Source: Pratylenchus scribneri (Eukaryota > Nematoda > Chromadorea > Rhabditida > Pratylenchidae). Taken from it: 64,000 nt of DNA. Below the pieces are notes generated by a model. It ran no database searches, was not told the origin of the DNA, and saw only the letters and a program-made list of their open reading frames with translations. Where the stretch lies: the NCBI GenBank assembly GCA_030063045.1, contig JAQSEB010000046.1, positions 1,302,001 through 1,366,000 of the forward strand. Reading direction: 5' to 3'. Both the position numbers and the translations under genes were made by a program. This document shows, one piece after another, positions 1-29,642 of the stretch (the stretch's first letter is position 1; every line of letters starts with the position of its first letter).

Positions 1-3000
1 ATTGAACCAAACATTTCGCGATGTATTCCATTTCGTTATGGTCGGTGTGGACGAATTGTCCGATGTGGGGGACCAAATGGCGTTGGAGGGAATCGGCGAA
101 TTATGGGAATGGATACCTTTTATGGAAATGAAATCAAATAAAATTTGGTTGCAAATTTACAATTATTACACGAAGGAAAATGACAATCTGAAACATCTTG
201 TAAGCGAAGAAAAATTTGATATAAAAGCTGAGGAGATATTCAATTTATTACCAGGTAAATTACAATATTCAAGAGATATTTTCTATTTTAGCTCAAATTC
301 TGATTTAAATTCATAAAAAAAATTCAAAATAATTTTTTTTTATTTAGAAAAAGAATTTATTGACGAACGATTAGAAGAGCAATATTCCGAAACCATTGAT
401 TTATTTAAAAATATAAATCCGAAAGAATTTTCGAATAAAGTAGAGGAATTGCCTATCAAAACTACGAAAAAGAGAAATAATAAGATTTTAAAAATTCAAA
501 AAAGGGATGAAGAAATTCAAAAAGTGGAGAAAGAAATTGAAGAAGAGAAGAAATTTTCGAAGGAAATAGAGGAATTTATACCTATTAAGGCTTGGATAAA
601 GAGCATAAATATGCTATTGAAAATTCAAAAAAGAGTGGAAGAAATTCAACAAAGAGATGAAGAAATTCAAAAAGAGACGAAAGAAATTGCAAAAATGAAG
701 AAAGGAATTGAAGAAGAGGAGAAAGGAAAAGAAAAAAGGGAGAAAGGAAATAAAAAGAAGAAAAAAATTCAAAAGAAGAAGGAAAAAATTAATAAAACAA
801 ATGAAGAAATTGAAATAATTGAAAAAAGTACACAACAATTTTTGAAATCGGTCTATGACAAATATTGGTACATGCTTTACAAGGAAAGGTATTCCTAAAG
901 ACAAAATATAAATTATTGATGAAATTAAAATTATGATTAATAAAAAATTTAGAAATAAAAATAATCAAATTTTATCCCTGTTCCCTACTACCCAATTCAC
1001 ATTATAGATTATATCAATAATTCTAAAAATTAATTAATTCATGAAAAAATTAATAAGTAAAGCATAAAAACCTAAGAGCAGCTATGAAATTAAAAATAGA
1101 ATAATTTACATTTTTATGAGTAGAGATCGGCAAGGCGCCTCGGTAAGGAACACGGTTCGCGATTCCGGAAAAATTCCCGAAACCGAATTACCGAGTCAAA
1201 AATAACGGGATCACATTCGGGATTCGTGAATTTTAAAATTGATGAAAAAACGAAAAAATAATATATAAAACTAAAACATATTTGATAGATTATTATTTGT
1301 TAGACATAAAAAATCAATATTTTATATTTTTTCATGGAAAAAATTTTAATGAAAAATGCCCAAAAGGCCCCTTTTTCTCTTTGGTCGGGTAATTTTCGGG
1401 AATTCCCGAATCCGTGTTGGTCCCAAAAATTCAAAAAAAATTTCGGTCGCGAATCATTCCAGAGTAGGGTTATCGAATTTTCTCGAACTGGTTCCCGTCT
1501 CCTCCGATCTCTATTTATGAGGCTAAACCATATTGGTGAATTAAGGAATATGCTTATTAGCTCATCAAAACATTTCACATTAAATATTAGCGATTTTTCA
1601 ATCTTTTTCTAGTAACAATAAGGATTTGTTTAAAATTAAAACGTCAAAATTATATAAATATATAATTTTTAGATTTAATGTTATTTATATGCGTATTCTT
1701 GAACTCACATATCAACTTTCTCTTGAAAATAATAAAACAAATTTAACTGAAAAAGATGAAAAAGTTGAATATAAAATGGATACACTTTTCAAGCTAATTG
1801 AGTCACTTAAGCCAGGCATTTTGGTGAAAATGATGGAGGTTTGTTTTTCCCAATAGCTATTAATGCTTACCCGAATATAGCTTATTTGCCAGTGTATATC
1901 TTTTAGTCAATTTTTATAATTATTAAAATTTACCTTCGGATTATTTTGCCTCTAATTAGAAGCGAAAAAAACTTTCTAAATGAAATAAGGTTAGATTTCG
2001 AGAGAGAATAAGCCAAAAATGCTATTATTTAGAAATTTGGATCAATTAAATTCAAAAACACTATTGCCACAAAAATGGCCATAACTCAAAAACCATAATG
2101 GCACAGCCCTTAACCCATGCATATCCCTTGCTCTATCCCCTAGAAACATGCAGTCTCTAACAAAGCCCTAACAGCGATTTTTCTCGAAATTTATTTCTTG
2201 ATTTTTTATAATTTTTGAATTATTTCTTATTTTATGTCTTTTTATCTTATTTTTTCATTTTTAAAATTTTTTTAGAAAATTTTAAAACTGACTTTGGAAA
2301 TTCTTGAACGTTATTTTTGGACCGAGAATTTCCGAGACCGTGAATTACCGTCTGTCCGAGATCTCGCGGTTATTCTTGTCCGAACTCTAGTTTATTGGTC
2401 TGTAATAAATTTCAGTCCCTTTACAGTCTTTTCGATATTTTCAATCCATTTTCGACATTTTTGATCTTTTTCGGCAAATAAATTTCTATTTAGATACTTA
2501 AAGCAGTTGATAAAGTTGTGGAAGATAATGAGATTGTAAAACGCGTGGAATATTATGAAGAAGATAAGGATTTCATTGGCTTTTTTGACAATAAAAATCC
2601 AAATTTGGAAGAATTTGAATTGCGAAAAAAGATGTCTGCTCTCTATGAAAAGATGATAATTTAGTAGAAGAAGGAGAGGAAGAGATGAGATATAAAAAAT
2701 GCCGTCATATGTCGGATGCGATGGATAAAATGCAAAAAAAAAAGAAAAAGAACTATTCCGTATTATTTAAATGTTTTTCAGAAGAAATGATTTTTATAAA
2801 GAGTGCAAATTATTTTATCGAGAATTTTAAGCTGCGGACATATAAAAGCATTACATTTTATGGGACTTTCTCATAACTTAGACAAAATTATAAACCAAAA
2901 TAATTAATTATTTCGTATAATAGATAATTCCTCCATATTATTCAAAAGTTCTAGAAAATAAATATCCCCCATTTTTAAATCTATTTAACTAAAATTTTCT

Positions 3001-4720
3001 CATGTTGAGGCATCTCTCAAATTCTACTTCTTTTTGCCCCAATGAATCAATGAAAAATTCAAAAATTATTTGCCTAATGGAAAATTCCCAGCAAATCAAA
3101 CAAGACAAATATATTTTGATATTGCCCAATCACCAACAATCTACTGTGTAGGGTCAATATAAGGAAGAGGGGTGAATAGGTGAAATAACAATTGTTAAGA
3201 ATGAATAGAAGAAAATTTAAAATTGGTTTGACCCTTGAGCCTTGATGACATTGAAAAGGGACAAAGAATTAATCTCCTTCATCAAAATTCCATTTTATTT
3301 ATTTTTTTTATTTGATGAAATTAAAATATGTGCCTTATTAGGCATTTTCCCATTCATCTCATCAGCAAATTTTTCCATTTTTTAATTTGGGTAATGGCAT
3401 TTGAGGATTTAACCCAGAATTGAACATTCATTTTTCAAAAAATGATTCTATTTTTAGGCCATTAACCTTCTTCTTCATTTAAAAGGACGCCAATATAAAA
3501 AGAGAATTTTCAATCAAGTCACCATAAAAGATAATGAATCATGCGCAATATTTTATTCATTCCGTATTTATTTAAAATTCATTTAAAATATATTATTTTT
3601 AAATAAAGTCTCTTTATTTTTTAATAAATTAATTTTTTTTATTTTATTTGGCTATCACGAAATGTTATTTTCTTTCTTATGTACTAGGCATAGGCACTTA
3701 CATTTGATACTGTCACCTTTCTAATCTAGAATATGGATTCAATTTTATGTTAAAAAAAAAGTGATTTTTATTCTCTTCAAATTCTCCATTTATATACCAA
3801 ATTTATTCACAGCAGAGAGTACTCCCTCCAAATTTAATCTGAAAATATGTATTTGATTCACCAATCATTAACATTATCGAAGAATTCAGAGATTTTCAAG
3901 AATTTAAGCAGCAAATTCGATTAGAATTATGCTCTCTTCTTAAAGGCTATTGTGACCTTGACGAATTTCGAAAAGATTTCATGTAAATTTCTTTATATTT
4001 TTAATTTATTAATTTATTTTTAAAGGGATGACAAATTCGACCCGGAAGAGAAGGCAAAAGAATTTGGTTATCGAAACCTTCGTGAATTGTTAGAATCTGA
4101 GGAAATGGAGGAATTTGTCAAAATTGAAAAGAATTTTACATATGGGGTCAATTTATTGTAAATTAATTTAAATAAAAATTTTTTAAGAATCCAACAATTT
4201 TTTATAAAGGAAGAGAAATTGATGAATGGAATTCGATTTTGAATGAAATGAAAGAAGGAGAAGAGGAGAAACAAAGAAAGTGAGAATAAATTCGATATAT
4301 TTTTTTTCTATATTTTAGACAAATACGAAAACAATATTGGCATGAAAAAAATCGGTAAAAATTTGATATAAAATATTTGTGAATATAATTTTTTAATGAT
4401 GTAACAGAAAAGAGCAAAATTGGGGAAAACAAAAGGCACATCAAAATGGGATGCAATTTTCGATAAATTCGAATAATTGGCAAAGGCGAAATATTCAACA
4501 AAATTGGTCAAATCAATTTAAACATCAATTTTTCAAAACCAACAATGTTCAAAACGGATGCCTCATAATTGGCTCTCCATTCCTTTCCTTTTGGTTTTCA
4601 CCTGCCTGTTGTTTCAATCCAATGCAATATCAAAATCCGGCACAATTCCCTCTGCTTTTTACTAGATCTCCCCCAAAGCCTTTATTTTTTATGAACCATT
4701 TTCTTCCGGCTGATCAGTAA
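1..4720 (+). CDS. Coiled-coil / LOTUS-like protein, copy A: 5' cut by window, 3' chimeric
   Basis: Exons by splice sites and phase: 1-254, 348-888, 1673-1838, 2494-2664, an exon ending at 3982, 4026-4146, 4188-4279, 4319-4354 and 4408-4720. The second exon is an extreme Lys/Glu/Ile-rich coiled coil (many repeats like EEIQK). The exon at 2494 stops at TAG 2662-2664, but the +2 shifted frame stays open and acidic to 2876, so there may be a one-base frame break. The exons around 3890-4146 resemble a LOTUS/OST-HTH fold (FGYRNLRELLES). The final exon matches the SPRY-bearing copy up to 4559, then reads 53 residues from spacer DNA and stops. The SPRY domain is missing. The join between 2876 and 3890 is unresolved, so two genes are possible. 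Confidence 0.6.
1116..1520. mobile_element. MITE-like foldback in an intron (also 12602-13006 and 23959-24363)
   Basis: The ends are imperfect inverted repeats around TAGAGATCGG on the left and CCGATCTCTA on the right, with further GC-richer inverted blocks inside (left GGTTCGCGATTCC, right GGTCGCGAATCATTCC). It sits in the large intron 889-1672 of the array gene. Two overlapping open frames of 92 codons on opposite strands come from this inverted structure and are not genes. Confidence 0.5.
2877..3860. other. Unassigned stretch inside the array gene (also in both later units)
   Basis: AT-rich with stops in all frames and no exon I can support. It lies between the coiled-coil part and the LOTUS-like part. 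It is either a long intron or the gap between two genes. Confidence 0.5.
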
Positions 4721-5373
4721 TCAGTGATGATCTAACCAAATTCCGTTCCTTTTCACCCAAATGCACTTTCATTATATGAACTATTTTTGGTCGGACCAGT
4801 GATCATCTACCCAAATGCCTCTCTCTGCTAGATCTTCCCCGCCATTTTAAAGCAATGCCCCTTCCCTTTTAGAGAGGAATTTTGCCCATAATAAAAACTT
4901 TCATTTGTCCTTGAATACACTCCGTCCTCTGTGGTCCAATTAATTGTGCCAATACTGAGTTCGCATCACTTTTCTCCAAATTCCACATTTTCAAATTCTT
5001 TGGCACTACTTAATTAACGGCTGGGGGGCAAAAATTATAAAATGGGGAGGGGGACAAATTTAAAGGGCAGAGTGGTACCCAAAAATTCATTATTCTGCCT
5101 CCCCCCCCCCCCCCCAATATTAAAAAGTCTGTAAAATGATTCTAAGCGTATTTTATCTTAATCTAAAGTCTACCTACTCTAAGCCTTGCCGTACTCTACC
5201 CCAGAAACCCATCTGGCACTACCGAAAGCTATTCCTACCCTATCTTAAAACCTAAATAAAATTTGTCTAAATCCTAAAGTGGCTTAGGTTATAGTAGTGT
5301 AGGGTTTAGAGTAGGTTCGGTTAGCTCATAGGTAGGGTAGAATTAGGTATTTTATTTTTCTTATTTTATCAAA
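4721..5373. other. Spacer and upstream region of array gene (also 16207-16862)
   Basis: No gene seen. It contains a 15-base poly-C tract (5101-5115; 18 bases at 16587-16604) and an imperfect inverted repeat around 5160-5345 built from CTACC/GGTAG motifs. The first 161 bases after the unit junction (from 4560) are translated only as the chimeric tail of the truncated gene copy. Any promoter of the array gene should lie here. Confidence 0.6.
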
Positions 5374-5399
5374 TTTTCAGTTCAATTTTTTATAAAAAA
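5374..5399 (+). promoter_or_regulatory. Candidate spliced-leader acceptor and start of copy B
   Basis: A TTTTCAG acceptor ends at 5380, 20 bases before the ATG at 5400, with AT-rich sequence upstream and no upstream in-frame exon. This layout is typical of nematode SL trans-splicing. The same site ends at 16869 for copy C. Confidence 0.55.
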
Positions 5400-8300
5400 A
5401 TGAATTTTTTTCCTGAAATTATTCATTCATTTTTTCTATTGCTAATTTTTTCCCAATTTGGCATCTCAATGAAGAGCCAAAATAAGGACAAAAAAATGAA
5501 GCAACATGAGAAGAAAAAAGATGCCATTGGTGGTAATAGCAGTAAAATTATAATAATGAAGAATTCATCTTCGAATTTAGATTCATTGCTAAAAATTGAA
5601 AAAGGTCGGTGAACAATTTTATTTATATTTAATGATTTAATTTATGAATTTAAAATAAATGGGTGAACCATTATAATCTTTTGGCATTTTTCAGTAAACT
5701 AAATATAATCATAATTTTAAAGTTGATGTGAATGAACGGCAGAGAAAGCAGAATGATGCAGAATTGCGGAAATGGTTAAAAACATTTTTTGGAAGCAACG
5801 GAAACGGTTATATAGATAATAAAACTTAGTTGATGGGAACTAGAAAAAACATTCAATACGTTTTTATTTTTAAAGCAATTTTTGTGTTTTCCGATTTTTT
5901 CACCAAACTTTTATATTCATTTGCGACAACTTTTTAGGAAAAAGAGCATTGGAAGGCAAAAATTGGAAGAGTTTCACACTTTTAAAATAGCATATATTAG
6001 CATTAGAGAGCTAATATTTTGTAGCAATTAAATGTCGCTTAACATAAGACAAAAAAAAACACTAAATTTGCTCTTTAATGCTAATCTAGCCTGTAAAGTT
6101 ATTTTCACATTCTGTATTTTTCGGCAAAATTATGACATTCCCAAATTTTTATATAATAAATTTAACATCTTCACAGGTGCCGCACCAATCTTTGAAAGTT
6201 ATAAGCAAATATTGTTGGCTAAAATGCCAGCTTCATCCTCTTCTAGCGGCCAAAATGAACAACATCAATCATCCCATCGTGAAGATGATATTCCGTTGAG
6301 CGATCCTGAAAGCAAAAGCATATCGTCCTCAAATGATAAAAATAAAAAACAAAATTCCAGCAAAGTTGGTTTTTGCAATACCCATTACATTATTAAAAAT
6401 TGGATTATACATTATATTACACAAAAAATGTAAAATATTCAATCGAAAAAAAATGAAATTTTTCTATTTTTTTTATTTTTACATATAATAGTAAGGTGCT
6501 AATTTTTTTGTCCAAAAATTTATTTTTTGTCCATAAATCAATTTTTTGAGTTTAATTTTTTGTGATTGATCCTAGATCTTAAAATCTTTTACCCATATTA
6601 TAGAGCTCATCGAGACGCGTCGATTGATGTATATATTTTTTCGAGTTTGGCAAAAATTCAAAGTATTAAACCGTTTAAACCATATTATGGTTATTGGATT
6701 CTAACTCTTTTAGTTTTGGACCTAATCCCAATAAATAATATATCATTCGACGCGTCTTGATGAGCTCTATTAAATGGGTAAAAAAGGTTTTAGGGCCTAG
6801 GATCAAACACTAAAAAGGTATATTCAAAAAACTTATTTGGACAAAAGAATGTAAATTTATGGACAAAAGAATGTAAATTTATGGAAAAAAGAATGTAAAT
6901 TTATGGAAAAAAGAATGTAAATTTATGGAAAAAAGAATGTAAATTTATGGACAAAAGAATGTAAATTTATGGACAAAAAGAATGTAAATTTATGGACAAA
7001 AGAATGTAAATTTATGGAAAAAAGAATGTAAATTTATGGAAAAAAGAATGTAAATTTATGGACAAAAAATATTTTCTCTTTAAAAATATGTTACAAAGGT
7101 AATTTATTACAACATCTAATATTGATATCATAAAATCATTAATTATGTGCCCAGAAACAGAAATACAAATAAAGTAGACAATAAAAAGACATGCATTTGC
7201 ATAGTAAACCTCTATTTGAAGCCCTCCTCTATTTAAAGCCCCCTCTAGGGAGTCTCTGAAATTTATAAGCCCCCCCCCCTGCATTGCTAGTAAATTGATA
7301 TTTTAAAAGAAACAAAAAAAAATTTCAGAAAAAATCAATCCCGCCCACTCGAATGATACCTACGGAGGAAACAACCAACGATGCAAAATCACAGGCAGTC
7401 ACGGTGATTGAAACGCCTAAAAGTCGAAAAATCGAATTGGTGCCCCGTCCAGAACCGAAGAAAAAGAATAAATACAATCAATTGGGGACCGATTTGAAAC
7501 AAAAGGGATCGAATGAGGCGGAAATTGCTGTTGATGATAATAACAATCAATTGGAAAGCGGAAATCACGGATCAGTAAAAGGTAAGCACAAAAAATAGAT
7601 AATTGAAGAATTTATTAAAATTTTATGTACATCCAAATTTTCTAGCGCTATTTTCGATAAGTTATAATAGCGGATTGGAAAAAATTTGATAAACTGAGTC
7701 GATCAAAGTATAGCATCGAAAATCTCTTAATTTTTCATTTAAAAACTTTTAAACCGGTTAAAAACCGCTTTGGCCAAATCGGCCGCACACATCCTTTTCA
7801 TTCCCGCGCATCTCGGGAATGTTGTAAACCTGTTTTATATAGCTTAACAATCACCCCCCCCCCCCGTTGGTGCAAAAAAAGCCTATTTTTGTGGTAGAAG
7901 AAAATTTCATCCAAAAATACCATATTAAAAAAAACCGACTGGATTTTTTTTTTGATTACCCAAACGATAGTCGGTAATTGATTCCTGTAGCACTAAATTT
8001 GCCCTAATCTATCTTGCTCTTGCAAAGTCCTATTCCTATCATAAATTATTAATAAAAATATTTGGCCTAAAATAAAAAACTCCAAAAAATATTTTAGGCC
8101 ATGTGTATACTTTTGTTTGATCAAACATTTTTCGTCTAACTTCTCTAATGCTCGCTTGCGTTGGGTCTCCCTCTCTCGAAAATGTTTGATCAAACATTTT
8201 GGCGAAATGCTTTGATGCGACATAGAAAAATAGCTGGAGCGAGAGAGAATGATAAAATGTACGCTTTTTCTCTAAAATGTTTGATGCACATAACCAAAAT

Positions 8301-11300
8301 GTTTGATCAAACAAGCGAGAGAGGGCAGACACACACGCGAGCAATGGAGAATTAGACGAAAAATGTTTGATCAAACAAAAAGTATATCTCAGGCCTTAGC
8401 CAATAATTTTGCAGAAGAAAAAGCCAGAATACAAAAAGAGAAGAAGGAAGAGGAGGAATTGTTTCGCCCATTTATTAAGAAGGCAGAAAAAGAACGGACG
8501 AAAAAAATGGAGCTGGAAAAAATGGTTAAAAATTTAATTTCGAAGAATAAGGAAAGAAGAGAGGAAATGGGGGTGGCTTTTTATTTTTATCAAGCAGAAT
8601 CATTCAATAATAAATTTAAAAAACAAGAAAAAGAACAAAGCGAATTCAACAAAATAAATAATATATTGAAAAATGTGAAGAATGAACTTAGTGAAATTAA
8701 AAAATTAGAGAAGGAATTGAATAAAATTGAGGATTTTTGGCTAATGGAAAAAATTGAACATTTTGGTAAAGAACTTCTGAATGGAATACAAATTATTGAT
8801 GACAGTGATTATGGAATTTTTCAAAATATAATAATGCCCTACCTTCTTTCATTTAAATATTCGAAAAAATTTGAAACATGGAACAATTTTAATGAGGAAC
8901 AAATTGATAAATTTAGGCAAATATTGATGAATGAATTTACAAAAAAGTACGATATTGATGAAATAGAGGAAATGAAGATTATTAAGGTAAACATATTTAA
9001 ATGTATAAAAATCAAAACTAATAAAAGTGAATTTCATCTACATATTTAGGGAGCAGCCCTAATGCGCGCAGCCAGGCAAATTGGGCGCAAGGCCCTATAG
9101 CTTTAAAAGTATTGAAGCATTTTCACTAAAATTGGTGTCAAATGAAAGAGCTAAAACGAGATCTATCGCATAATGCATAATTCACATTAATCGCTTTAAA
9201 ATTCAAATTGTTATGGTTAAAAAAGTCCAAAAAATTACGAAAAACGCACGCTTATTTTCAAAGTCTTATTTTCGCCATACCTGAATCAATCTTTTTATAT
9301 AATATACCATTCGATATATAAAACTCGGGTCTTCAAAATGACATTAAAATTATTGAAAATGATTTGGTACTTGTGAAGTTATGATGCGTCAAACTTTCTC
9401 GCGCCCATTTGGCCTGCGCCCAGTAGGGGTGGTACCCACAAATTTAGCATTTTAAGATAAATATTTTATAAATTTTCATTTCGATAAAAGCTAACATTTT
9501 CTTACCAAGATGCAAGATATGACGAAAAGGATGTCAAATTTGTTATAGGAAATTAAAATTATCTCTGAAAACTTATTTTTGCAGAAATTAAAAACTAATT
9601 TTATTTGGTTACGAAATTCGTAATAGTGCTAGTTAAAATAAAAAATATGGCTTTCTATTTTAAAATTTAGAGAAAAATGGAGAAACCGTTGCAAAATTTG
9701 TGGAATGAATATGAAGAAGTGCTTGTAATTCTCAACAGTTATTGGAAAAATCCTGATATCAGGAGACTTTTTGAATTAAAAAGACCCTATCATTTTATCA
9801 GGTAAATTACGTTTTAAACAAATTAATAAAAATATGAATAGAAAAAAATTTTTCAATCACTTTTTTCAGAGCCATTTATGGCATTACAATTCCCGCCGTT
9901 AAAGAAAGGGAAAAACTTAATTTGGAATTCAATGAAACAATGAAAATCGCATTGGAAAAAATGATATCGTATCGTTATTTATATAGGTACGGAATACGGA
10001 TAGTTTTTTTTATCAATGAAATTAAGGACAGTTACTGAAATAGATCTTAACTTAAATAAATATGTCGGCTAGTTTTTCGGCTACTTTCACAAAGTTTAGA
10101 ACAATGTTTCATTTTTTTCTAAATAAATCCAAACTACTTAAGAGAGCATTATTTTTTACCTGTGAAAAAAATATAAACTAATATTTTGAATAAATTATAT
10201 TTTTTAGTATTATATTTAACATTATGATATATTTTAACTTAATTCTATTTTTGAGATATCATAAATTTTAAGATTTAAAGAAAATCAGAGTAAAGAAAAT
10301 AGATTCTCTTGTTTAAATAGCATAGGAATAAAATATGACCAAGATGACCCAAATACCATATTTATATGGCATTTTTCATATTTTTGATCAACGGTCCATA
10401 TTTTTTCGTTTTTTTTTCTGTAGCAAGCATTCTTTGCAAAAATTTTTCTTTAGGCAGCCATTTTTGACTTAAATTTTTGCTGCCTCAATTTTTGGGCTAA
10501 ATTTTCGCTATATAGTCATTTTATATTTTTGCCATATTTTTGAAAAATTTCTCATATTTTTTTTTCATATTTTTAATAGCTTATGCCATATTTTTATCAG
10601 GTGTATGGGTCACCCTGAATAAGACCAAAAAAGCAGTAAAATTTTTAAATTTGGACTTTTGCAAAATATTAGAATAAAAGATTTTCCATTTGATTAAATC
10701 ATAGATCCTAATTCAACTCGTCGTCGAAAGATTCGGTACGCGTCTCGTGTCTCGTCCTATTAACATTATTAAAAAATAAAAAGAAAAAAACACAAATTAT
10801 AATTCTTTTATTTACATTTTTAAATATTTTAGTGACATTAAAATGAAGGATAAAGGCACTGGAAGATTTTTGGGAGAAAAAATGAATTGTTTCGAAGAAT
10901 TGTCAGAAAGTAAGTGAAAAAAAGAATTATTTTACAATCAATTGCTTCTTTCAAATTGGCCAAATTTTTTTTAACTTTTTTATAATGAATAATAATTTTG
11001 GTAAATTTAGAAGGATTATGCAATTGTAATAACTAATATTGCATATACTCCATCTAGATCTCTTAGCGGATATCCGTTTTCAAAAAACCTGCAATTTTAA
11101 ATTATATTTTGAATTCATTTTTAAATAAATAGGTTTTAATGGATGATTAACCAATAATAAATTTAAAAAGTGAAAAAGTACCAAAAAAATAATTATTTTT
11201 AGCGGAATTTAAAAAAATGTCAAAAAAACAATTAATTATTTTTATATCAAAAAATGACTAATTTAAAAATGTTTTGTCCTTTAATAAATTTAAAATATTT

Positions 11301-14300
11301 TGATTTTAAATCATTTTTCTTCTTTTGATTAATTCGTAGCTAATAATGCAATGACTTGAGAATTTTTAATAAATTGTAGCAAATTATATTAATAAAAGTA
11401 AAATCTGATTAAGGAATTCATCAGCTTAATAATAAACTTGACACGGCTGAAGACTATGAGAAACTCAGAAAATATTTCAATAAAGAATTGAACCAAACAT
11501 TTCGCGATGTATTCCATTTCGTTATGGTCGGTGTGGACGAATTGTCCGATGTGGGGGACCAAATGGCGTTGGAGGGAATCGGCGAATTATGGGAATGGAT
11601 ACCTTTTATGGAAATGAAATCAAATAAAATTTGGTTGCAAATTTACAATTATTACACGAAGGAAAATGACAATCTGAAACATCTTGTAAGCGAAGAAAAA
11701 TTTGATATAAAAGCTGAGGAGATATTCAATTTATTACCAGGTAAATTACAATATTCAAGAGATATTTTCTATTTTAGCTCAAATTCTGATTTAAATTCAT
11801 AAAAAAAATTCAAAATAATTTTTTTTTATTTAGAAAAAGAATTTATTGACGAACGATTAGAAGAGCAATATTCCGAAACCATTGATTTATTTAAAAATAT
11901 AAATCCGAAAGAATTTTCGAATAAAGTAGAGGAATTGCCTATCAAAACTACGAAAAAGAGAAATAATAAGATTTTAAAAATTCAAAAAAGGGATGAAGAA
12001 ATTCAAAAAGTGGAGAAAGAAATTGAAGAAGAGAAGAAATTTTCGAAGGAAATAGAGGAATTTATACCTATTAAGGCTTGGATAAAGAGCATAAATATGC
12101 TATTGAAAATTCAAAAAAGAGTGGAAGAAATTCAACAAAGAGATGAAGAAATTCAAAAAGAGACGAAAGAAATTGCAAAAATGAAGAAAGGAATTGAAGA
12201 AGAGGAGAAAGGAAAAGAAAAAAGGGAGAAAGGAAATAAAAAGAAGAAAAAAATTCAAAAGAAGAAGGAAAAAATTAATAAAACAAATGAAGAAATTGAA
12301 ATAATTGAAAAAAGTACACAACAATTTTTGAAATCGGTCTATGACAAATATTGGTACATGCTTTACAAGGAAAGGTATTCCTAAAGACAAAATATAAATT
12401 ATTGATGAAATTAAAATTATGATTAATAAAAAATTTAGAAATAAAAATAATCAAATTTTATCCCTGTTCCCTACTACCCAATTCACATTATAGATTATAT
12501 CAATAATTCTAAAAATTAATTAATTCATGAAAAAATTAATAAGTAAAGCATAAAAACCTAAGAGCAGCTATGAAATTAAAAATAGAATAATTTACATTTT
12601 TATGAGTAGAGATCGGCAAGGCGCCTCGGTAAGGAACACGGTTCGCGATTCCGGAAAAATTCCCGAAACCGAATTACCGAGTCAAAAATAACGGGATCAC
12701 ATTCGGGATTCGTGAATTTTAAAATTGATGAAAAAACGAAAAAATAATATATAAAACTAAAACATATTTGATAGATTATTATTTGTTAGACATAAAAAAT
12801 CAATATTTTATATTTTTTCATGGAAAAAATTTTAATGAAAAATGCCCAAAAGGCCCCTTTTTCTCTTTGGTCGGGTAATTTTCGGGAATTCCCGAATCCG
12901 TGTTGGTCCCAAAAATTCAAAAAAAATTTCGGTCGCGAATCATTCCAGAGTAGGGTTATCGAATTTTCTCGAACTGGTTCCCGTCTCCTCCGATCTCTAT
13001 TTATGAGGCTAAACCATATTGGTGAATTAAGGAATATGCTTATTAGCTCATCAAAACATTTCACATTAAATATTAGCGATTTTTCAATCTTTTTCTAGTA
13101 ACAATAAGGATTTGTTTAAAATTAAAACGTCAAAATTATATAAATATATAATTTTTAGATTTAATGTTATTTATATGCGTATTCTTGAACTCACATATCA
13201 ACTTTCTCTTGAAAATAATAAAACAAATTTAACTGAAAAAGATGAAAAAGTTGAATATAAAATGGATACACTTTTCAAGCTAATTGAGTCACTTAAGCCA
13301 GGCATTTTGGTGAAAATGATGGAGGTTTGTTTTTCCCAATAGCTATTAATGCTTACCCGAATATAGCTTATTTGCCAGTGTATATCTTTTAGTCAATTTT
13401 TATAATTATTAAAATTTACCTTCGGATTATTTTGCCTCTAATTAGAAGCGAAAAAAACTTTCTAAATGAAATAAGGTTAGATTTCGAGAGAGAATAAGCC
13501 AAAAATGCTATTATTTAGAAATTTGGATCAATTAAATTCAAAAACACTATTGCCACAAAAATGGCCATAACTCAAAAACCATAATGGCACAGCCCTTAAC
13601 CCATGCATATCCCTTGCTCTATCCCCTAGAAACATGCAGTCTCTAACAAAGCCCTAACAGCGATTTTTCTCGAAATTTATTTCTTGATTTTTTATAATTT
13701 TTGAATTATTTCTTATTTTATGTCTTTTTATCTTATTTTTTCATTTTTAAAATTTTTTTAGAAAATTTTAAAACTGACTTTGGAAATTCTTGAACGTTAT
13801 TTTTGGACCGAGAATTTCCGAGACCGTGAATTACCGTCTGTCCGAGATCTCGCGGTTATTCTTGTCCGAACTCTAGTTTATTGGTCTGTAATAAATTTCA
13901 GTCCCTTTACAGTCTTTTCGATATTTTCAATCCATTTTCGACATTTTTGATCTTTTTCGGCAAATAAATTTCTATTTAGATACTTAAAGCAGTTGATAAA
14001 GTTGTGGAAGATAATGAGATTGTAAAACGCGTGGAATATTATGAAGAAGATAAGGATTTCATTGGCTTTTTTGACAATAAAAATCCAAATTTGGAAGAAT
14101 TTGAATTGCGAAAAAAGATGTCTGCTCTCTATGAAAAGATGATAATTTAGTAGAAGAAGGAGAGGAAGAGATGAGATATAAAAAATGCCGTCATATGTCG
14201 GATGCGATGGATAAAATGCAAAAAAAAAAGAAAAAGAACTATTCCGTATTATTTAAATGTTTTTCAGAAGAAATGATTTTTATAAAGAGTGCAAATTATT

Positions 14301-16888: not shown

Positions 16889-19800
16889 ATGAATTTTTTT
16901 CCTGAAATTATTCATTCATTTTTTCTATTGCTAATTTTTTCCCAATTTGGCATCTCAATGAAGAGCCAAAATAAGGACAAAAAAATGAAGCAACATGAGA
17001 AGAAAAAAGATGCCATTGGTGGTAATAGCAGTAAAATTATAATAATGAAGAATTCATCTTCGAATTTAGATTCATTGCTAAAAATTGAAAAAGGTCGGTG
17101 AACAATTTTATTTATATTTAATGATTTAATTTATGAATTTAAAATAAATGGGTGAACCATTATAATCTTTTGGCATTTTTCAGTAAACTAAATATAATCA
17201 TAATTTTAAAGTTGATGTGAATGAACGGCAGAGAAAGCAGAATGATGCAGAATTGCGGAAATGGTTAAAAACATTTTTTGGAAGCAACGGAAACGGTTAT
17301 ATAGATAATAAAACTTAGTTGATGGGAACTAGAAAAAACATTCAATACGTTTTTATTTTTAAAGCAATTTTTGTGTTTTCCGATTTTTTCACCAAACTTT
17401 TATATTCATTTGCGACAACTTTTTAGGAAAAAGAGCATTGGAAGGCAAAAATTGGAAGAGTTTCACACTTTTAAAATAGCATATATTAGCATTAGAGAGC
17501 TAATATTTTGTAGCAATTAAATGTCGCTTAACATAAGACAAAAAAAAACACTAAATTTGCTCTTTAATGCTAATCTAGCCTGTAAAGTTATTTTCACATT
17601 CTGTATTTTTCGGCAAAATTATGACATTCCCAAATTTTTATATAATAAATTTAACATCTTCACAGGTGCCGCACCAATCTTTGAAAGTTATAAGCAAATA
17701 TTGTTGGCTAAAATGCCAGCTTCATCCTCTTCTAGCGGCCAAAATGAACAACATCAATCATCCCATCGTGAAGATGATATTCCGTTGAGCGATCCTGAAA
17801 GCAAAAGCATATCGTCCTCAAATGATAAAAATAAAAAACAAAATTCCAGCAAAGTTGGTTTTTGCAATACCCATTACATTATTAAAAATTGGATTATACA
17901 TTATATTACACAAAAAATGTAAAATATTCAATCGAAAAAAAATGAAATTTTTCTATTTTTTTTATTTTTACATATAATAGTAAGGTGCTAATTTTTTTGT
18001 CCAAAAATTTATTTTTTGTCCATAAATCAATTTTTTGAGTTTAATTTTTTGTGATTGATCCTAGATCTTAAAATCTTTTACCCATATTATAGAGCTCATC
18101 GAGACGCGTCGATTGATGTATATATTTTTTCGAGTTTGGCAAAAATTCAAAGTATTAAACCGTTTAAACCATATTATGGTTATTGGATTCTAACTCTTTT
18201 AGTTTTGGACCTAATCCCAATAAATAATATATCATTCGACGCGTCTTGATGAGCTCTATTAAATGGGTAAAAAAGGTTTTAGGGCCTAGGATCAAACACT
18301 AAAAAGGTATATTCAAAAAACTTATTTGGACAAAAGAATGTAAATTTATGGACAAAAGAATGTAAATTTATGGAAAAAAGAATGTAAATTTATGGAAAAA
18401 AGAATGTAAATTTATGGACAAAAAATATTTTCTCTTTAAAAATATGTTACAAAGGTAATTTATTACAACATCTAATATTGATATCATAAAATCATTAATT
18501 ATGTGCCCAGAAACAGAAATACAAATAAAGTAGACAATAAAAAGACATGCATTTGCATAGTAAACCTCTATTTGAAGCCCTCCTCTATTTAAAGCCCCCT
18601 CTAGGGAGTCTCTGAAATTTATAAGCCCCCCCCCCCTGCATTGCTAGTAAATTGATATTTTAAAAGAAACAAAAAAAAATTTCAGAAAAAATCAATCCCG
18701 CCCACTCGAATGATACCTACGGAGGAAACAACCAACGATGCAAAATCACAGGCAGTCACGGTGATTGAAACGCCTAAAAGTCGAAAAATCGAATTGGTGC
18801 CCCGTCCAGAACCGAAGAAAAAGAATAAATACAATCAATTGGGGACCGATTTGAAACAAAAGGGATCGAATGAGGCGGAAATTGCTGTTGATGATAATAA
18901 CAATCAATTGGAAAGCGGAAATCACGGATCAGTAAAAGGTAAGCACAAAAAATAGATAATTGAAGAATTTATTAAAATTTTATGTACATCCAAATTTTCT
19001 AGCGCTATTTTCGATAAGTTATAATAGCGGATTGGAAAAAATTTGATAAACTGAGTCGATCAAAGTATAGCATCGAAAATCTCTTAATTTTTCATTTAAA
19101 AACTTTTAAACCGGTTAAAAACCGCTTTGGCCAAATCGGCCGCACACATCCTTTTCATTCCCGCGCATCTCGGGAATGTTGTAAACCTGTTTTATATAGC
19201 TTAACAATCACCCCCCCCCCCCGTTGGTGCAAAAAAAGCCTATTTTTGTGGTAGAAGAAAATTTCATCCAAAAATACCATATTAAAAAAAACCGACTGGA
19301 TTTTTTTTTTGATTACCCAAACGATAGTCGGTAATTGATTCCTGTAGCACTAAATTTGCCCTAATCTATCTTGCTCTTGCAAAGTCCTATTCCTATCATA
19401 AATTATTAATAAAAATATTTGGCCTAAAATAAAAAACTCCAAAAAATATTTTAGGCCATGTGTATACTTTTGTTTGATCAAACATTTTTCGTCTAACTTC
19501 TCTAATGCTCGCTTGCGTTGGGTCTCCCTCTCTCGAAAATGTTTGATCAAACATTTTGGCGAAATGCTTTGATGCGACATAGAAAAATAGCTGGAGCGAG
19601 AGAGAATGATAAAATGTACGCTTTTTCTCTAAAATGTTTGATGCACATAACCAAAATGTTTGATCAAACAAGCGAGAGAGGGCAGACACACACGCGAGCA
19701 ATGGAGAATTAGACGAAAAATGTTTGATCAAACAAAAAGTATATCTCAGGCCTTAGCCAATAATTTTGCAGAAGAAAAAGCCAGAATACAAAAAGAGAAG

Positions 19801-22800
19801 AAGGAAGAGGAGGAATTGTTTCGCCCATTTATTAAGAAGGCAGAAAAAGAACGGACGAAAAAAATGGAGCTGGAAAAAATGGTTAAAAATTTAATTTCGA
19901 AGAATAAGGAAAGAAGAGAGGAAATGGGGGTGGCTTTTTATTTTTATCAAGCAGAATCATTCAATAATAAATTTAAAAAACAAGAAAAAGAACAAAGCGA
20001 ATTCAACAAAATAAATAATATATTGAAAAATGTGAAGAATGAACTTAGTGAAATTAAAAAATTAGAGAAGGAATTGAATAAAATTGAGGATTTTTGGCTA
20101 ATGGAAAAAATTGAACATTTTGGTAAAGAACTTCTGAATGGAATACAAATTATTGATGACAGTGATTATGGAATTTTTCAAAATATAATAATGCCCTACC
20201 TTCTTTCATTTAAATATTCGAAAAAATTTGAAACATGGAACAATTTTAATGAGGAACAAATTGATAAATTTAGGCAAATATTGATGAATGAATTTACAAA
20301 AAAGTACGATATTGATGAAATAGAGGAAATGAAGATTATTAAGGTAAACATATTTAAATGTATAAAAATCAAAACTAATAAAAGTGAATTTCATCTACAT
20401 ATTTAGGGAGCAGCCCTAATGCGCGCAGCCAGGCAAATTGGGCGCAAGGCCCTATAGCTTTAAAAGTATTGAAGCATTTTCACTAAAATTGGTGTCAAAT
20501 GAAAGAGCTAAAACGAGATCTATCGCATAATGCATAATTCACATTAATCGCTTTAAAATTCAAATTGTTATGGTTAAAAAAGTCCAAAAAATTACGAAAA
20601 ACGCACGCTTATTTTCAAAGTCTTATTTTCGCCATACCTGAATCAATCTTTTTATATAATATACCATTCGATATATAAAACTCGGGTCTTCAAAATGACA
20701 TTAAAATTATTGAAAATGATTTGGTACTTGTGAAGTTATGATGCGTCAAACTTTCTCGCGCCCATTTGGCCTGCGCCCAGTAGGGGTGGTACCCACAAAT
20801 TTAGCATTTTAAGATAAATATTTTATAAATTTTCATTTCGATAAAAGCTAACATTTTCTTACCAAGATGCAAGATATGACGAAAAGGATGTCAAATTTGT
20901 TATAGGAAATTAAAATTATCTCTGAAAACTTATTTTTGCAGAAATTAAAAACTAATTTTATTTGGTTACGAAATTCGTAATAGTGCTAGTTAAAATAAAA
21001 AATATGGCTTTCTATTTTAAAATTTAGAGAAAAATGGAGAAACCGTTGCAAAATTTGTGGAATGAATATGAAGAAGTGCTTGTAATTCTCAACAGTTATT
21101 GGAAAAATCCTGATATCAGGAGACTTTTTGAATTAAAAAGACCCTATCATTTTATCAGGTAAATTACGTTTTAAACAAATTAATAAAAATATGAATAGAA
21201 AAAAATTTTTCAATCACTTTTTTCAGAGCCATTTATGGCATTACAATTCCCGCCGTTAAAGAAAGGGAAAAACTTAATTTGGAATTCAATGAAACAATGA
21301 AAATCGCATTGGAAAAAATGATATCGTATCGTTATTTATATAGGTACGGAATACGGATAGTTTTTTTTATCAATGAAATTAAGGACAGTTACTGAAATAG
21401 ATCTTAACTTAAATAAATATGTCGGCTAGTTTTTCGGCTACTTTCACAAAGTTTAGAACAATGTTTCATTTTTTTCTAAATAAATCCAAACTACTTAAGA
21501 GAGCATTATTTTTTACCTGTGAAAAAAATATAAACTAATATTTTGAATAAATTATATTTTTTAGTATTATATTTAACATTATGATATATTTTAACTTAAT
21601 TCTATTTTTGAGATATCATAAATTTTAAGATTTAAAGAAAATCAGAGTAAAGAAAATAGATTCTCTTGTTTAAATAGCATAGGAATAAAATATGACCAAG
21701 ATGACCCAAATACCATATTTATATGGCATTTTTCATATTTTTGATCAACGGTCCATATTTTTTCGTTTTTTTTTCTGTAGCAAGCATTCTTTGCAAAAAT
21801 TTTTCTTTAGGCAGCCATTTTTGACTTAAATTTTTGCTGCCTCAATTTTTGGGCTAAATTTTCGCTATATAGTCATTTTATATTTTTGCCATATTTTTGA
21901 AAAATTTCTCATATTTTTTTTTCATATTTTTAATAGCTTATGCCATATTTTTATCAGGTGTATGGGTCACCCTGAATAAGACCAAAAAAGCAGTAAAATT
22001 TTTAAATTTGGACTTTTGCAAAATATTAGAATAAAAGATTTTCCATTTGATTAAATCATAGATCCTAATTCAACTCGTCGTCGAAAGATTCGGTACGCGT
22101 CTCGTGTCTCGTCCTATTAACATTATTAAAAAATAAAAAGAAAAAAACACAAATTATAATTCTTTTATTTACATTTTTAAATATTTTAGTGACATTAAAA
22201 TGAAGGATAAAGGCACTGGAAGATTTTTGGGAGAAAAAATGAATTGTTTCGAAGAATTGTCAGAAAGTAAGTGAAAAAAAGAATTATTTTACAATCAATT
22301 GCTTCTTTCAAATTGGCCAAATTTTTTTTAACTTTTTTATAATGAATAATAATTTTGGTAAATTTAGAAGGATTATGCAATTGTAATAACTAATATTGCA
22401 TATACTCCATCTAGATCTCTTAGCGGATATCCGTTTTCAAAAAACCTGCAATTTTAAATTATATTTTGAATTCATTTTTAAATAAATAGGTTTTAATGGA
22501 TGATTAACCAATAATAAATTTAAAAAGTGAAAAAGTACCAAAAAAATAATTATTTTTAGCGGAATTTAAAAAAATGTCAAAAAAACAATTAATTATTTTT
22601 ATATCAAAAAATGACTAATTTAAAAATGTTTTGTCCTTTAATAAATTTAAAATATTTTGATTTTAAATCATTTTTCTTCTTTTGATTAATTCGTAGCTAA
22701 TAATGCAATGACTTGAGAATTTTTAATAAATTGTAGCAAATTATATTAATAAAAGTAAAATCTGATTAAGGAATTCATCAGCTTAATAATAAACTTGACA

Positions 22801-25800
22801 CGGCTGAAGACTATGAGAAACTCAGAAAATATTTCAATAAAGAATTGAACCAAACATTTCGCGATGTATTCCATTTCGTTATGGTCGGTGTGGACGAATT
22901 GTCCGATGTGGGGGACCAAATGGCGTTGGAGGGAATCGGCGAATTATGGGAATGGATACCTTTTATGGAAATGAAATCAAATAAAATTTGGTTGCAAATT
23001 TACAATTATTACACGAAGGAAAATGACAATCTGAAACATCTTGTAAGCGAAGAAAAATTTGATATAAAAGCTGAGGAGATATTCAATTTATTACCAGGTA
23101 AATTACAATATTCAAGAGATATTTTCTATTTTAGCTCAAATTCTGATTTAAATTCATAAAAAAAATTCAAAATAATTTTTTTTTATTTAGAAAAAGAATT
23201 TATTGATGAACGATTAGAAGAGCAATATTCCGAAACCATTGATTTATTTAAAAATATAAATCCGAAAGAATTTTCGAATAAAGTAGAGGAATTGCCTATC
23301 AAAACTACGAAAAAGAGAAATAATAAGATTTTAAAAATTCAAAAAAGGGATGAAGAAATTCAAAAAGTGGAGAAAGAAATTGAAGAAGAGAAGAAATTTT
23401 CGAAGGAAATAGAGGAATTTATACCTATTAAGGCTTGGATAAAGAGCATAAATATGCTATTGAAAATTCAAAAAAGAGTGGAAGAAATTCAACAAAGAGA
23501 TGAAGAAATTCAAAAAGAGACGAAAGAAATTGCAAAAATGAAGAAAGGAATTGAAGAAGAGGAGAAAGGAAAAGAAAAAAGGGAGAAAGGAAATAAAAAG
23601 AAGAAAAAAATTCAAAAGAAGAAGGAAAAAATTAATAAAACAAATGAAGAAATTGAAATAATTGAAAAAAGTACACAACAATTTTTGAAATCGGTCTATG
23701 ACAAATATTGGTACATGCTTTACAAGGAAAGGTATTCCTAAAGACAAAATATAAATTATTGATGAAATTAAAATTATGATTAATAAAAAATTTAGAAATA
23801 AAAATAATCAAATTTTATCCCTGTTCCCTACTACCCAATTCACATTATAGATTATATCAATAATTCTAAAAATTAATTAATTCATGAAAAAATTAATAAG
23901 TAAAGCATAAAAACCTAAGAGCAGCTATGAAATTAAAAATAGAATAATTTACATTTTTATGAGTAGAGATCGGCAAGGCGCCTCGGTAAGGAACACGGTT
24001 CGCGATTCCGGAAAAATTCCCGAAACCGAATTACCGAGTCAAAAATAACGGGATCACATTCGGGATTCGTGAATTTTAAAATTGATGAAAAAACGAAAAA
24101 ATAATATATAAAACTAAAACATATTTGATAGATTATTATTTGTTAGACATAAAAAATCAATATTTTATATTTTTTCATGGAAAAAATTTTAATGAAAAAT
24201 GCCCAAAAGGCCCCTTTTTCTCTTTGGTCGGGTAATTTTCGGGAATTCCCGAATCCGTGTTGGTCCCAAAAATTCAAAAAAAATTTCGGTCGCGAATCAT
24301 TCCAGAGTAGGGTTATCGAATTTTCTCGAACTGGTTCCCGTCTCCTCCGATCTCTATTTATGAGGCTAAACCATATTGGTGAATTAAGGAATATGCTTAT
24401 TAGCTCATCAAAACATTTCACATTAAATATTAGCGATTTTTCAATCTTTTTCTAGTAACAATAAGGATTTGTTTAAAATTAAAACGTCAAAATTATATAA
24501 ATATATAATTTTTAGATTTAATGTTATTTATATGCGTATTCTTGAACTCACATATCAACTTTCTCTTGAAAATAATAAAACAAATTTAACTGAAAAAGAT
24601 GAAAAAGTTGAATATAAAATGGATACACTTTTCAAGCTAATTGAGTCACTTAAGCCAGGCATTTTGGTGAAAATGATGGAGGTTTGTTTTTCCCAATAGC
24701 TATTAATGCTTACCCGAATATAGCTTATTTGCCAGTGTATATCTTTTAGTCAATTTTTATAATTATTAAAATTTACCTTCGGATTATTTTGCCTCTAATT
24801 AGAAGCGAAAAAAACTTTCTAAATGAAATAAGGTTAGATTTCGAGAGAGAATAAGCCAAAAATGCTATTATTTAGAAATTTGGATCAATTAAATTCAAAA
24901 ACACTATTGCCACAAAAATGGCCATAACTCAAAAACCATAATGGCACAGCCCTTAACCCATGCATATCCCTTGCTCTATCCCCTAGAAACATGCAGTCTC
25001 TAACAAAGCCCTAACAGCGATTTTTCTCGAAATTTATTTCTTGATTTTTTATAATTTTTGAATTATTTCTTATTTTATGTCTTTTTATCTTATTTTTTCA
25101 TTTTTAAAATTTTTTTAGAAAATTTTAAAACTGACTTTGGAAATTCTTGAACGTTATTTTTGGACCGAGAATTTCCGAGACCGTGAATTACCGTCTGTCC
25201 GAGATCTCGCGGTTATTCTTGTCCGAACTCTAGTTTATTGGTCTGTAATAAATTTCAGTCCCTTTACAGTCTTTTCGATATTTTCAATCCATTTTCGACA
25301 TTTTTGATCTTTTTCGGCAAATAAATTTCTATTTAGATACTTAAAGCAGTTGATAAAGTTGTGGAAGATAATGAGATTGTAAAACGCGTGGAATATTATG
25401 AAGAAGATAAGGATTTCATTGGCTTTTTTGACAATAAAAATCCAAATTTGGAAGAATTTGAATTGCGAAAAAAGATGTCTGCTCTCTATGAAAAGATGAT
25501 AATTTAGTAGAAGAAGGAGAGGAAGAGATGAGATATAAAAAATGCCGTCATATGTCGGATGCGATGGATAAAATGCAAAAAAAAAAGAAAAAGAACTATT
25601 CCGTATTATTTAAATGTTTTTCAGAAGAAATGATTTTTATAAAGAGTGCAAATTATTTTATCGAGAATTTTAAGCTGCGGACATATAAAAGCATTACATT
25701 TTATGGGACTTTCTCATAACTTAGACAAAATTATAAACCAAAATAATTAATTATTTCGTATAATAGATAATTCCTCCATATTATTCAAAAGTTCTAGAAA

Positions 25801-28800
25801 ATAAATATCCCCCATTTTTAAATCTATTTAACTAAAATTTTCTCATGTTGAGGCATCTCTCAAATTCTACTTCTTTTTGCCCCAATGAATCAATGAAAAA
25901 TTCAAAAATTATTTGCCTAATGGAAAATTCCCAGCAAATCAAACAAGACAAATATATTTTGATATTGCCCAATCACCAACAATCTACTGTGTAGGGTCAA
26001 TATAAGGAAGAGGGGTGAATAGGTGAAATAACAATTGTTAAGAATGAATAGAAGAAAATTTAAAATTGGTTTGACCCTTGAGCCTTGATGACATTGAAAA
26101 GGGACAAAGAATTAATCTCCTTCATCAAAATTCCATTTTATTTATTTTTTTTATTTGATGAAATTAAAATATGTGCCTTATTAGGCATTTTCCCATTCAT
26201 CTCATCAGCAAATTTTTCCATTTTTTAATTTGGGTAATGGCATTTGAGGATTTAACCCAGAATTGAACATTCATTTTTCAAAAAATGATTCTATTTTTAG
26301 GCCATTAACCTTCTTCTTCATTTAAAAGGACGCCAATATAAAAAGAGAATTTTCAATCAAGTCACCATAAAAGATAATGAATCATGCGCAATATTTTATT
26401 CATTCCGTATTTATTTAAAATTCATTTAAAATATATTATTTTTAAATAAAGTCTCTTTATTTTTTAATAAATTAATTTTTTTTATTTTATTTGGCTATCA
26501 CGAAATGTTATTTTCTTTCTTATGTACTAGGCATAGGCACTTACATTTGATACTGCCACCTTTCTAATCTAGAATATGGATTCAATTTTATGTTAAAAAA
26601 AAAGTGATTTTTATTCTCTTCAAATTCTCCATTTATATACCAAATTTATTCACAGCAGAGAGTACTCCCTCCAAATTTAATCTGAAAATATGTATTTGAT
26701 TCACCAATCATTAACATTATCGAAGAATTCAGAGATTTTCAAGAATTTAAGCAGCAAATTCGATTAGAATTATGCTCTCTTCTTAAAGGCTATTGTGACC
26801 TTGACGAATTTCGAAAAGATTTCATGTAAATTTCTTTATATTTTTAATTTATTAATTTATTTTTAAAGGGATGACAAATTCGACCCGGAAGAGAAGGCAA
26901 AAGAATTTGGTTATCGAAACCTTCGTGAATTGTTAGAATCTGAGGAAATGGAGGAATTTGTCAAAATTGAAAAGAATTTTACATATGGGGTCAATTTATT
27001 GTAAATTAATTTAAATAAAAATTTTTTAAGAATCCAACAATTTTTTATAAAGGAAGAGAAATTGATGAATGGAATTCGATTTTGAATGAAATGAAAGAAG
27101 GAGAAGAGGAGAAACAAAGAAAGTGAGAATAAATTCGATATATTTTTTTTCTATATTTTAGACAAATACGAAAACAATATTGGCATGAAAAAAATCGGTA
27201 AAAATTTGATATAAAATATTTGTGAATATAATTTTTTAATGATGTAACAGAAAAGAGCAAAATTGGGGAAAACAAAAGGCACATCAAAATGGGATGCAAT
27301 TTTCGATAAATTCGAATAATTGGCAAAGGCGAAATATTCAACAAAATTGGTCAAATCAATTTAAACATCAATTTTTCAAAACCAACAATGTTCAAAACGG
27401 ATTTATGGCTATGGCAAAAATGAAGAAGGAATTGGATGAAATAAGGAAAGTGATGATGATGACTGAGAAAGAGGAAAAAATTTCTGGATTGATTGAAGAG
27501 AATGAAAAATTGAAAAGAAAGATGATCGAATCTGAAAAGCGAATTGATGAAGTAAGTAAATATACTAGGTCAATTTTAATTGAAAATGTTTACATAGTTT
27601 TAATTGATAATACATTAAAAATCTGGGAAATTTGGATTTTAAATATTATTCAATTTCGGTTTTTTTATAACCATATTAATTTTGTATAACTCTATGGGGA
27701 ATTATTTTCCAATCCTTAAAAAATTATAATTGAATTTGAAGAACTTTAGGAAACTATTAAAATGCAATACATTTTTTTTATAATTTCATCCTAACAAATA
27801 AAACTAATAATAAATATATTTTATGATTTTTTTCAAAAAATATTCCAATTTTAATATTATATATATTTTATTGTATTAATGATAATTTTTCATTTCTAAT
27901 TTTCTATAATCCATAAAATACAAATTTTATGTAAAATATTTATTCTTTTATAAATTTAGAATAATAAATTCAACGATATATTTATACAATACGATTGGAA
28001 AACATACAAATTGAACGCCGATGATTGTGGCGGAGGATTGCGCATTACCGGTGGAGGACTGATAGCACATCATTTTGGACTTAGTATGCAATTTAGAATT
28101 AAATTTTTTTATAATTTTATTATTATTATAAAAGCACGGAGTTCTGTTCGTGCCACATTGCCGATTCCAATTTTTCCTGTCAAAAACGATTCAATTGCGT
28201 TCTATTATGAAATGAAAATTCTCAGAAAGGTATTTACAAGGTAATTTTTATTAATAAATAAATTTCTGCATGAAATTTTAAAAATAATCATATAATTTTT
28301 TCATTTACAAATAATTATTAATTATTCGGTCATAGAGACAATATCGATATTGGTTTTTGTTCGAAAGAATTTCCATTACAAGGCAAATTGTTGCTTGGAC
28401 GTGAGAAAAATTCGATTGGAATTTTTCAAAAAGGACAAATATGGGTCGATGGAAATTTAATTACTGCTTCGTCTGGATTAATGGATTTATCAGATGGAAA
28501 TGACAATGGATACTTCAATGACGATGATGTTATCGGAATTGGCATTATTCTTCAACCTAATTCAATAATTAGATGCTTTTACACATACAATGGAAAAGAA
28601 ATGGGTAAGATAATTCATGATGATTGGCAATATAAAAAAATTTAATTTGTGAATAAAATGAGGCAATAATTTAACGCAAATTAAATAAAATATAGTGAAA
28701 TGAATGGCAACTTTTATAACTCATGAAAATTTAAAAAAAATAAATTTAAATTCCTTTATTTAAATATGAAAAATTTGAAAAATTTTTGCATTTAAATAGT

Positions 28801-29642
28801 TGTCCAAAGTCGGGTATAGGAAATTTGGGCTCCGGTGAACTTTTGTTACCGCGAATTATGGGCAACAAATTGGAGAAATGTCTAAAAGCTCTCATAAAAT
28901 GGATTTATTCATTATTTAAATGAATATTATGCTAATATTATATAGTAAATTGGGTTTCTGTAAATTTTCTGACTCGATATTTTCAAAAAATCTCATAATC
29001 ATGCAAATTATCAATCAATCGACACAGCTCGACGAACAGATTATGAATGATTGTCATTGGCTTTGAATAAAACTCGAAAATATAATAGTTATGCACATTT
29101 AAGTATCCTATTTTTTAATGTGTATGTTTTTGAAATTTAAAGTTTATTTACCAAATCAATAAGATTTTTAAGTGCAGCTCGTTGACTGAGACGCGTCGAT
29201 TAATATATATCATTAGTATGATTTCGAGAAGTTTTTTTGCAAATTTGGAGCCAGAAAATTTATAAAAAAAACCTAACTATATAATATTAATATTAAATTC
29301 GTTTAAATAATGAATAAATCCATTTTATGATAGCTTTTAGACATTTCTCCAATTTGGTTACCATAATTCGTAGAGCCCAAGGTTCGCCGATGCCCAAATT
29401 TTATGGAATCTGTACTAAACTAGACCGATCTGTCGGGCTCGAAAATTTAATAATGAAAAATGACTAAAAAAATTCATAATATTTATTTACATTTTTCAAA
29501 AAAAAAAATAATTAAATCAAATTTAGGGACTGCTGATTTACCGTCAAAATTTTATAATATCAAACTTTTCCCGGTCGTCAGTCTGAATGTTTCGGCCGAG
29601 TTAATACAAGTGACCTTTGCCTCCCGCCATCTTAATCGCTAA
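16889..29642 (+). CDS. Secreted coiled-coil / LOTUS-like / SPRY-domain protein, complete copy C
   Basis: Exons: 16889-17093, 17212-17295, 17666-17853, 18686-18938, 19772-20343, 21028-21158, 21227-21343, 22190-22266, 22771-23097, 23191-23731, 24516-24681, 25337-25507 (possible frame break), an exon ending 26825, 26869-26989, 27031-27122, 27162-27197, 27251-27551, 27960-28083, 28135-28240, 28336-28604, 29527-29642. The first half equals copy B. Exon 27251-27551 crosses the array edge and adds a second coiled coil (EKEEKISGLIEENEKLK). The last four exons form a SPRY domain: GGGLRITGGG, SIAFYYEMKI, DIGFC, IGIFQKG, GIGI and a final YNIKLFPVVSLN strand. Secreted SPRY proteins (SPRYSECs) are known effectors of cyst nematodes. 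Whether this one is an effector is inference. A two-gene model split near 2.9-3.9 kb of the unit remains possible. Confidence 0.65.
18330..18417 (+). repeat. 22-bp VNTR, 4 copies
   Basis: Four copies of the same 22-bp unit that has ten copies at 6841-7061, in the equivalent position of the next tandem unit. Confidence 0.95.
28816..29408. mobile_element. Long foldback element in the last SPRY intron
   Basis: Arms of roughly 150-170 bases face each other: AAATTTGGGC, then GGAGAAATGTCTAAAAGCT and AAATGGATTTATTCATTAT on the left, with the reverse complement in the right arm (29293-29408). The centre carries GAGACGCGTCGAT (29190-29202). It enlarges the intron 28605-29526 between the last two exons of the SPRY gene, whose other SPRY introns are much shorter (about 50-410 bases). 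Confidence 0.75.

Follow-up and report, generated by a model that had tools for sequence, protein, structure and literature searches.

A tandem array that carries one gene whole and cuts its neighbor within an exon

Introduction

What happens to two neighboring genes when a tandem duplication takes in all of one and ends inside an exon of the other? The locus described here raises this question. The window (the whole stretch of 64,000 nucleotides that we analyzed) is contig C46, positions 1302001 to 1366000, from a genome of 227.2 Mb in 276 contigs. The original prediction, made from the sequence of the window, was that a single rearrangement had yielded a family of a secreted coiled-coil protein with and without its SPRY domain. 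We compared the window with itself, with its left flank, and with the rest of the genome, and we describe the locus in terms of two genes, A and B.

Three near-identical units with blunt junctions

A self-comparison that included 40 kb of the contig upstream found exactly three head-to-tail units, which are near-identical and about 11.4 kb each. In the negative coordinates, 0 is the base preceding the window, and the array starts 6,931 bases to the left of the window.

-6930 to 4559, + strand: unit U0, 11,490 bp by self-comparison (1 to 4559 is inside the window; C46 1295070 to 1306559)
4560 to 16045, + strand: unit U1, 11,486 bp by self-comparison
16046 to 27402, + strand: unit U2, 11,357 bp, with a shorter 22-bp repeat block than U0 and U1
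4559/4560: U0/U1 junction, blunt, with 0 bases common to either flank
16045/16046: U1/U2 junction, with letters identical to those of the U0/U1 junction
27402/27403: right edge of the array, within exon 5 of gene B
6838 to 7067, + strand: 22-bp tandem repeat in U1, 10.4 copies (in U2, 18327 to 18423, 4.4 copies)

Both junctions and the right edge had been placed at these bases in the original prediction, and the self-comparison bears them out. The main difference in length among the units is the 22-bp repeat block, whose long form is common to U0 and U1. Apart from indels in homopolymer runs and the 22-bp repeat, the three units differ by only two substitutions, at U2 positions 23207 and 26556. 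We rejected an exchange driven by repeats at the ends of the units, since 0 bases are shared at either edge; the blunt joint fits end joining.

Since the copies are nearly identical and are known from one assembly, we considered whether the assembler had tripled a single copy. However, the units differ in the number of 22-bp repeats, in homopolymer runs, and at the two substituted positions, and genome searches with the edge sequences (26402 to 28402 and 16046 to 17346) found near-identical copies at this locus only. We consider an assembly artefact to be very unlikely.

Gene A is whole in each unit

16889 to 25507, + strand: gene A, U2 copy, from the ATG at 16889 to the stop at 25505 to 25507, exon borders partly mapped
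5400 to 14150, + strand: gene A, U1 copy, with its ORF from the ATG at 5400, by near-identity to U2
1 to 2664, + strand: gene A, 3' part of the U0 copy, by near-identity to U2

All of gene A falls within the unit, and every copy of it is uncut. Judged by eye, its first exon (ATG 16889) is signal-peptide-like and further exons are coiled-coil-like; the product is likely to be secreted. No Pfam family scored above its cut-off on the pieces of gene A that were scanned. With a piece of gene A as the query, the protein collection returned one protein of 92 amino acids, which matches 71% of the query at 99% identity.

Gene A has many relatives. A conserved ORF of 129 amino acids (22770 to 23156 in the U2 copy) has 39 matches in the genome, three of which are the array copies; 10 are on contig C21 and 9 are on C46, including the array's three. 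The six further relatives on C46 lie between 1.21 and 1.28 Mb. In a genome search, the coiled-coil-like ORF at 19741 to 20403 had no matches beyond the three array copies, although a part of it has a weak match in the left flank. Sequence comparison also identified relatives of several gene A exons in the left flank, and in two of these relatives, the last exon stops at the place that corresponds to 25505 to 25507.

Across C46 1206659 to 1325156, gene A relatives are clustered in both orientations, and the window's three copies are near-identical members of this cluster. About 3.5 kb to the left of the array (C46 1291479 to 1291610), there is another signal-peptide-like exon of the gene A type; no later gene A exons were matched between it and the array edge. 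Just downstream of another gene A relative, at about C46 1265790 to 1265990, is a stretch that looks SPRY-like by eye and contains an in-frame stop.

Gene B is a separate gene

26734 to 28645, + strand: gene B with the SPRY-like end, exons placed by GT..AG and frame
26734 or earlier to 26825, 26869 to 26989, 27031 to 27122, and 27162 to 27197, + strand: gene B exons 1 to 4, by GT..AG and frame
27251 to 27551, 27960 to 28083, 28135 to 28240, and 28336 to 28645, + strand: gene B exons 5 to 8, borders at 28240 and 28336 by eye
26869 to 26989, + strand: gene B exon 2, which holds the core of DUF7515 (PF24359; 40 bits, cut-off 27)

The curated cut-off for DUF7515 is passed both by exon 2 in the window and by a spliced relative on contig C14 (60.7 bits). 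We rejected a LOTUS domain for gene B: on exon 2, OST-HTH reached just 12.2 bits (cut-off, 23.8), and DUF7515 passes. No literature joining the LOTUS domain, nematodes, and SPRY was found.

DNA relatives of gene B are on C99, C40 (two), C14, C35, C103, and C5. These seven, together with the three array copies and 13 further places, make up the 23 genome matches to DUF7515; our statements about relatives of gene B cover the seven loci. Each of the seven relatives has its own in-frame ATG shortly before the conserved start of the DUF7515 domain, and by eye none has a signal peptide. In the window, no in-frame ATG is present in exon 1, back to the preceding in-frame stop, in any of the three copies of gene B. 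The original prediction had overlooked that the cut gene is missing this ATG.

That prediction treated the cut exon as part of a secreted coiled-coil protein. A single long gene would then begin at the signal-peptide exon, pass through coiled coils, and finish with SPRY, and secreted forms with and without SPRY would come from the array. The parts do lie on one strand, with 1.2 kb between the stop of gene A and gene B, and because gene B has no start of its own at this locus, a fusion by splicing is conceivable. However, the signal-peptide-like exon is part of gene A, whose stop at 25505 to 25507 corresponds to the stops in the two left-flank relatives, and the relatives of gene B that were read start at their own ATG. 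The relatives of the two genes also stand apart elsewhere in the genome. For the gene B places on C99, C14, C35, C103, and C5, no gene A match is on the same contig, and for the two on C40, the nearest gene A match is more than 270 kb away; the three array copies, which complete the set of 10 gene B places that we compared, are the only ones with a close gene A match, at a distance of 4.1 kb. On these grounds, we reject the single long secreted gene, which is the least probable of the explanations we considered.

In the SPRY-bearing copy, exons 2 to 8 of gene B are open and keep their phase, and pairwise dN/dS between the window's gene B and the seven relatives is 0.52 to 0.79. Thus, some constraint on gene B is possible. 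The C99 relative has its own ATG, but its first exon is frame-shifted by one base; one of the C40 relatives has a broken frame in exon 4, given the exon borders that we chose. The family therefore seems to include several damaged members. In the C14 relative, the DUF7515 exons are followed by an open stretch with a CxxC...CxxC pattern that is weakly RING-like (best E of 0.012, below the cut-off). The gene B family may carry different C-terminal ends. When the protein collection was searched with the C14 relative, none of the 33 candidates had an E value up to 0.001.

The C-terminal end of gene B is SPRY-like

28322 to 28645, + strand: SPRY-like ORF containing exon 8, 19.1 bits for Pfam SPRY (PF00622), below the cut-off of 26.3

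The score falls short of the cut-off for one exon scored alone, with the exons of the domain unjoined. This ORF has many relatives in the genome: 150 of 856 candidates were scored, and all of them, the window and 149 others, have E values below 1e-13. We aligned the window with 8 of 11 fetched relatives (three with stops were left out). Four of these nine members match SPRY at E up to 0.1, and a profile of all nine had 0 matches to solved structures at E up to 0.01. We therefore use the label "SPRY-like."

Just one of the seven loci with relatives of gene B, on C99, matches the SPRY-like ORF (at E up to 1). The other six have no SPRY-like match within the approximately 6 to 7 kb that was read downstream. 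In C14, C35, and C103, the frame closes within a few residues of the end of the shared sequence; by eye, an acceptor-like site comes next, so these three may splice on to other exons. A tree of eight sequences gave no clear order of gain or loss for the SPRY-like end, with two inner branches at 68%.

The array edge cuts exon 5

4408 to 4720, + strand: chimeric exon 5 of truncated gene B copy 1, stop at 4718 to 4720
15894 to 16206, + strand: chimeric exon 5 of truncated gene B copy 2, letters identical to copy 1

Exon 5 of gene B (27251 to 27551) is open and contains the array edge at 27402, as predicted. In the last copy, it continues into a stretch that is coiled-coil-like by eye and later into the SPRY-like exon, which ends with TAA at 28643 to 28645. 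The continuation agrees with the original prediction of a second coiled coil and a SPRY domain; the two labels are softer, as the coiled coil was judged by eye and the SPRY score is below the cut-off. In each of the other two copies, the exon crosses the unit junction, gains the 53 new residues that had been predicted (CLIIG...PADQ), and then stops.

The uncut form of the exon is older than the array: the C99 relative aligns with exon 5 across the breakpoint (53% identity, query residues 5 to 103) and has a SPRY-like exon about 0.7 kb further on. As for the proposed family with and without SPRY, one rearrangement did set truncated, SPRY-less copies of the exon beside a copy with a SPRY-like end; "secreted coiled-coil," in contrast, merges two neighbors. 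Also, 6 of the 7 other loci have no recognizable SPRY in the DNA that was read, so the array need not have originated the SPRY-less form.

The relatives at five places (C14, C35, C103, and C40 twice) cease to resemble gene B at 27348 to 27363, or about 40 to 54 bases from the array break at 27402. This suggests another possibility, that a DUF7515-SPRY gene repeatedly sheds its C-terminal half at a short stretch of exon 5 and that the array is a fresh case. If true, a recurrent switch between SPRY-bearing forms and SPRY-less forms with new tails would be readable here. We doubt it strongly, about as much as we doubt an assembly artefact.

Another explanation is that the truncated copies of gene B are new working genes, which would encode a SPRY-less DUF7515 protein with a tail of 53 residues, under a duplicated promoter. 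The two copies carry chimeric exons that are open and have the same sequence, an AATAAA at 4890 is 170 bases past the stop of the chimeric exon, and relatives of gene B without a recognizable SPRY exist. In Drosophila yakuba, similar rearrangements often activate transcription (30 cases; PMC5460883). However, none of the three copies has an in-frame ATG in exon 1, and the tail is within chance for its composition: 244 of 5,000 shuffles of 4560 to 5400 (841 bp) stay open as long, as do 795 of 5,000 shuffles of the tail itself. Thus, the length of the tail is no evidence of coding. The chimeric ORF had no match in the protein collection, which seems to hold little of this genome. In the genome search, none of the matches listed outside the array begins before unit base 419, a span that covers the tail. 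We consider it unlikely that the truncated copies are working genes, though this is less improbable than the other alternatives.

Gain of gene A as the most probable explanation

We favor, with a probability of roughly 70%, the explanation that the array is a gain of whole copies of gene A and that the truncation of gene B in the two upstream copies is a by-product. The first tandem duplication would have been made by end joining, and the third unit would have come from unequal exchange between copies. Any benefit of the array would come from the extra gene A. From the truncated copies of gene B we would expect hardly any protein or none: they lack the start codon of the family, and any transcript from them would continue into the DNA that precedes the next gene A copy. 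However, an upstream exon that we have not seen could be spliced to exon 1 of gene B, or the splicing of exons 1 and 2 could create an ATG at which translation starts, so the truncated copies may yet yield protein.

Genome setting

Beyond the array, the window contains collagen and fucosyltransferase exons. Pectate lyase (PF03211) has 27 exon-wise matches in the genome; these matches and the many SPRY-like places indicate that the genome probably belongs to a plant-parasitic nematode.

The rest of the window has three long minisatellites: 30431 to 31223 (units of 31/186 bp), 42946 to 44003 (24 bp), and 48106 to 49300 (31 bp). The 24-bp minisatellite is open in several frames and is flanked by fucosyltransferase (GT10) exons at 40693 to 41568 (- strand) and 44047 to 44496 (+ strand). 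Around the third minisatellite is an inverted pair (47160 to 47723 and 49726 to 50293), 82.5% identical over about 570 bp; ORFs that overlap both arms show a weak resemblance to glycosyltransferase family 11, with scores under the cut-off.

Discussion

Plant-parasitic nematodes have expanded SPRY families, such as the SPRYSECs of Globodera, and an injected SPRY effector of this kind has a signal peptide followed by SPRY and is expressed in glands. Like the Globodera expansions, this genome has many SPRY-like places (150 of 856 candidates scored) as well as pectate lyase exons. Unlike the SPRYSECs, gene B joins its SPRY-like end to DUF7515, and by eye its relatives lack a signal peptide.

The array also resembles a whole-gene tandem duplication in a clustered multigene family, in that gene A is whole in each unit and has relatives on the same contig. 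It differs from a plain duplication of this type in that the unit also carries half of an unrelated neighbor, gene B.

A closer parallel is found in Drosophila yakuba, where Rogers et al. (2017; PMC5460883) described tandem duplications with "recruited non-coding sequence." There, the 5' part of a gene is copied and set against formerly untranscribed DNA. In the array, similarly, the duplicated 5' part of gene B is joined at the junctions to other, presumably non-genic DNA, and the older uncut arrangement is known, from C99. The array most likely belongs to this described class. The Drosophila study concerned population variation with RNA data; ours concerns three units in one nematode assembly. 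That study (PMC5460883) found that expression changed little after whole-gene duplication, an argument against a simple dosage benefit; it also reported 30 cases in which sequence next to cut genes had become transcribed, which leaves room for a transcribed chimera here.

This locus shows cleanly, and to the base, how a single tandem duplication can copy one gene in full and truncate the next; the older state survives both in the last copy and in C99, a relative at another place in the genome. It also carries a caution: when a gene array is read without relatives, two neighbors can be merged into an imagined protein. Should chimeric transcripts be found, the locus would offer a recent instance, in a nematode, of intergenic DNA giving rise to a new protein tail.
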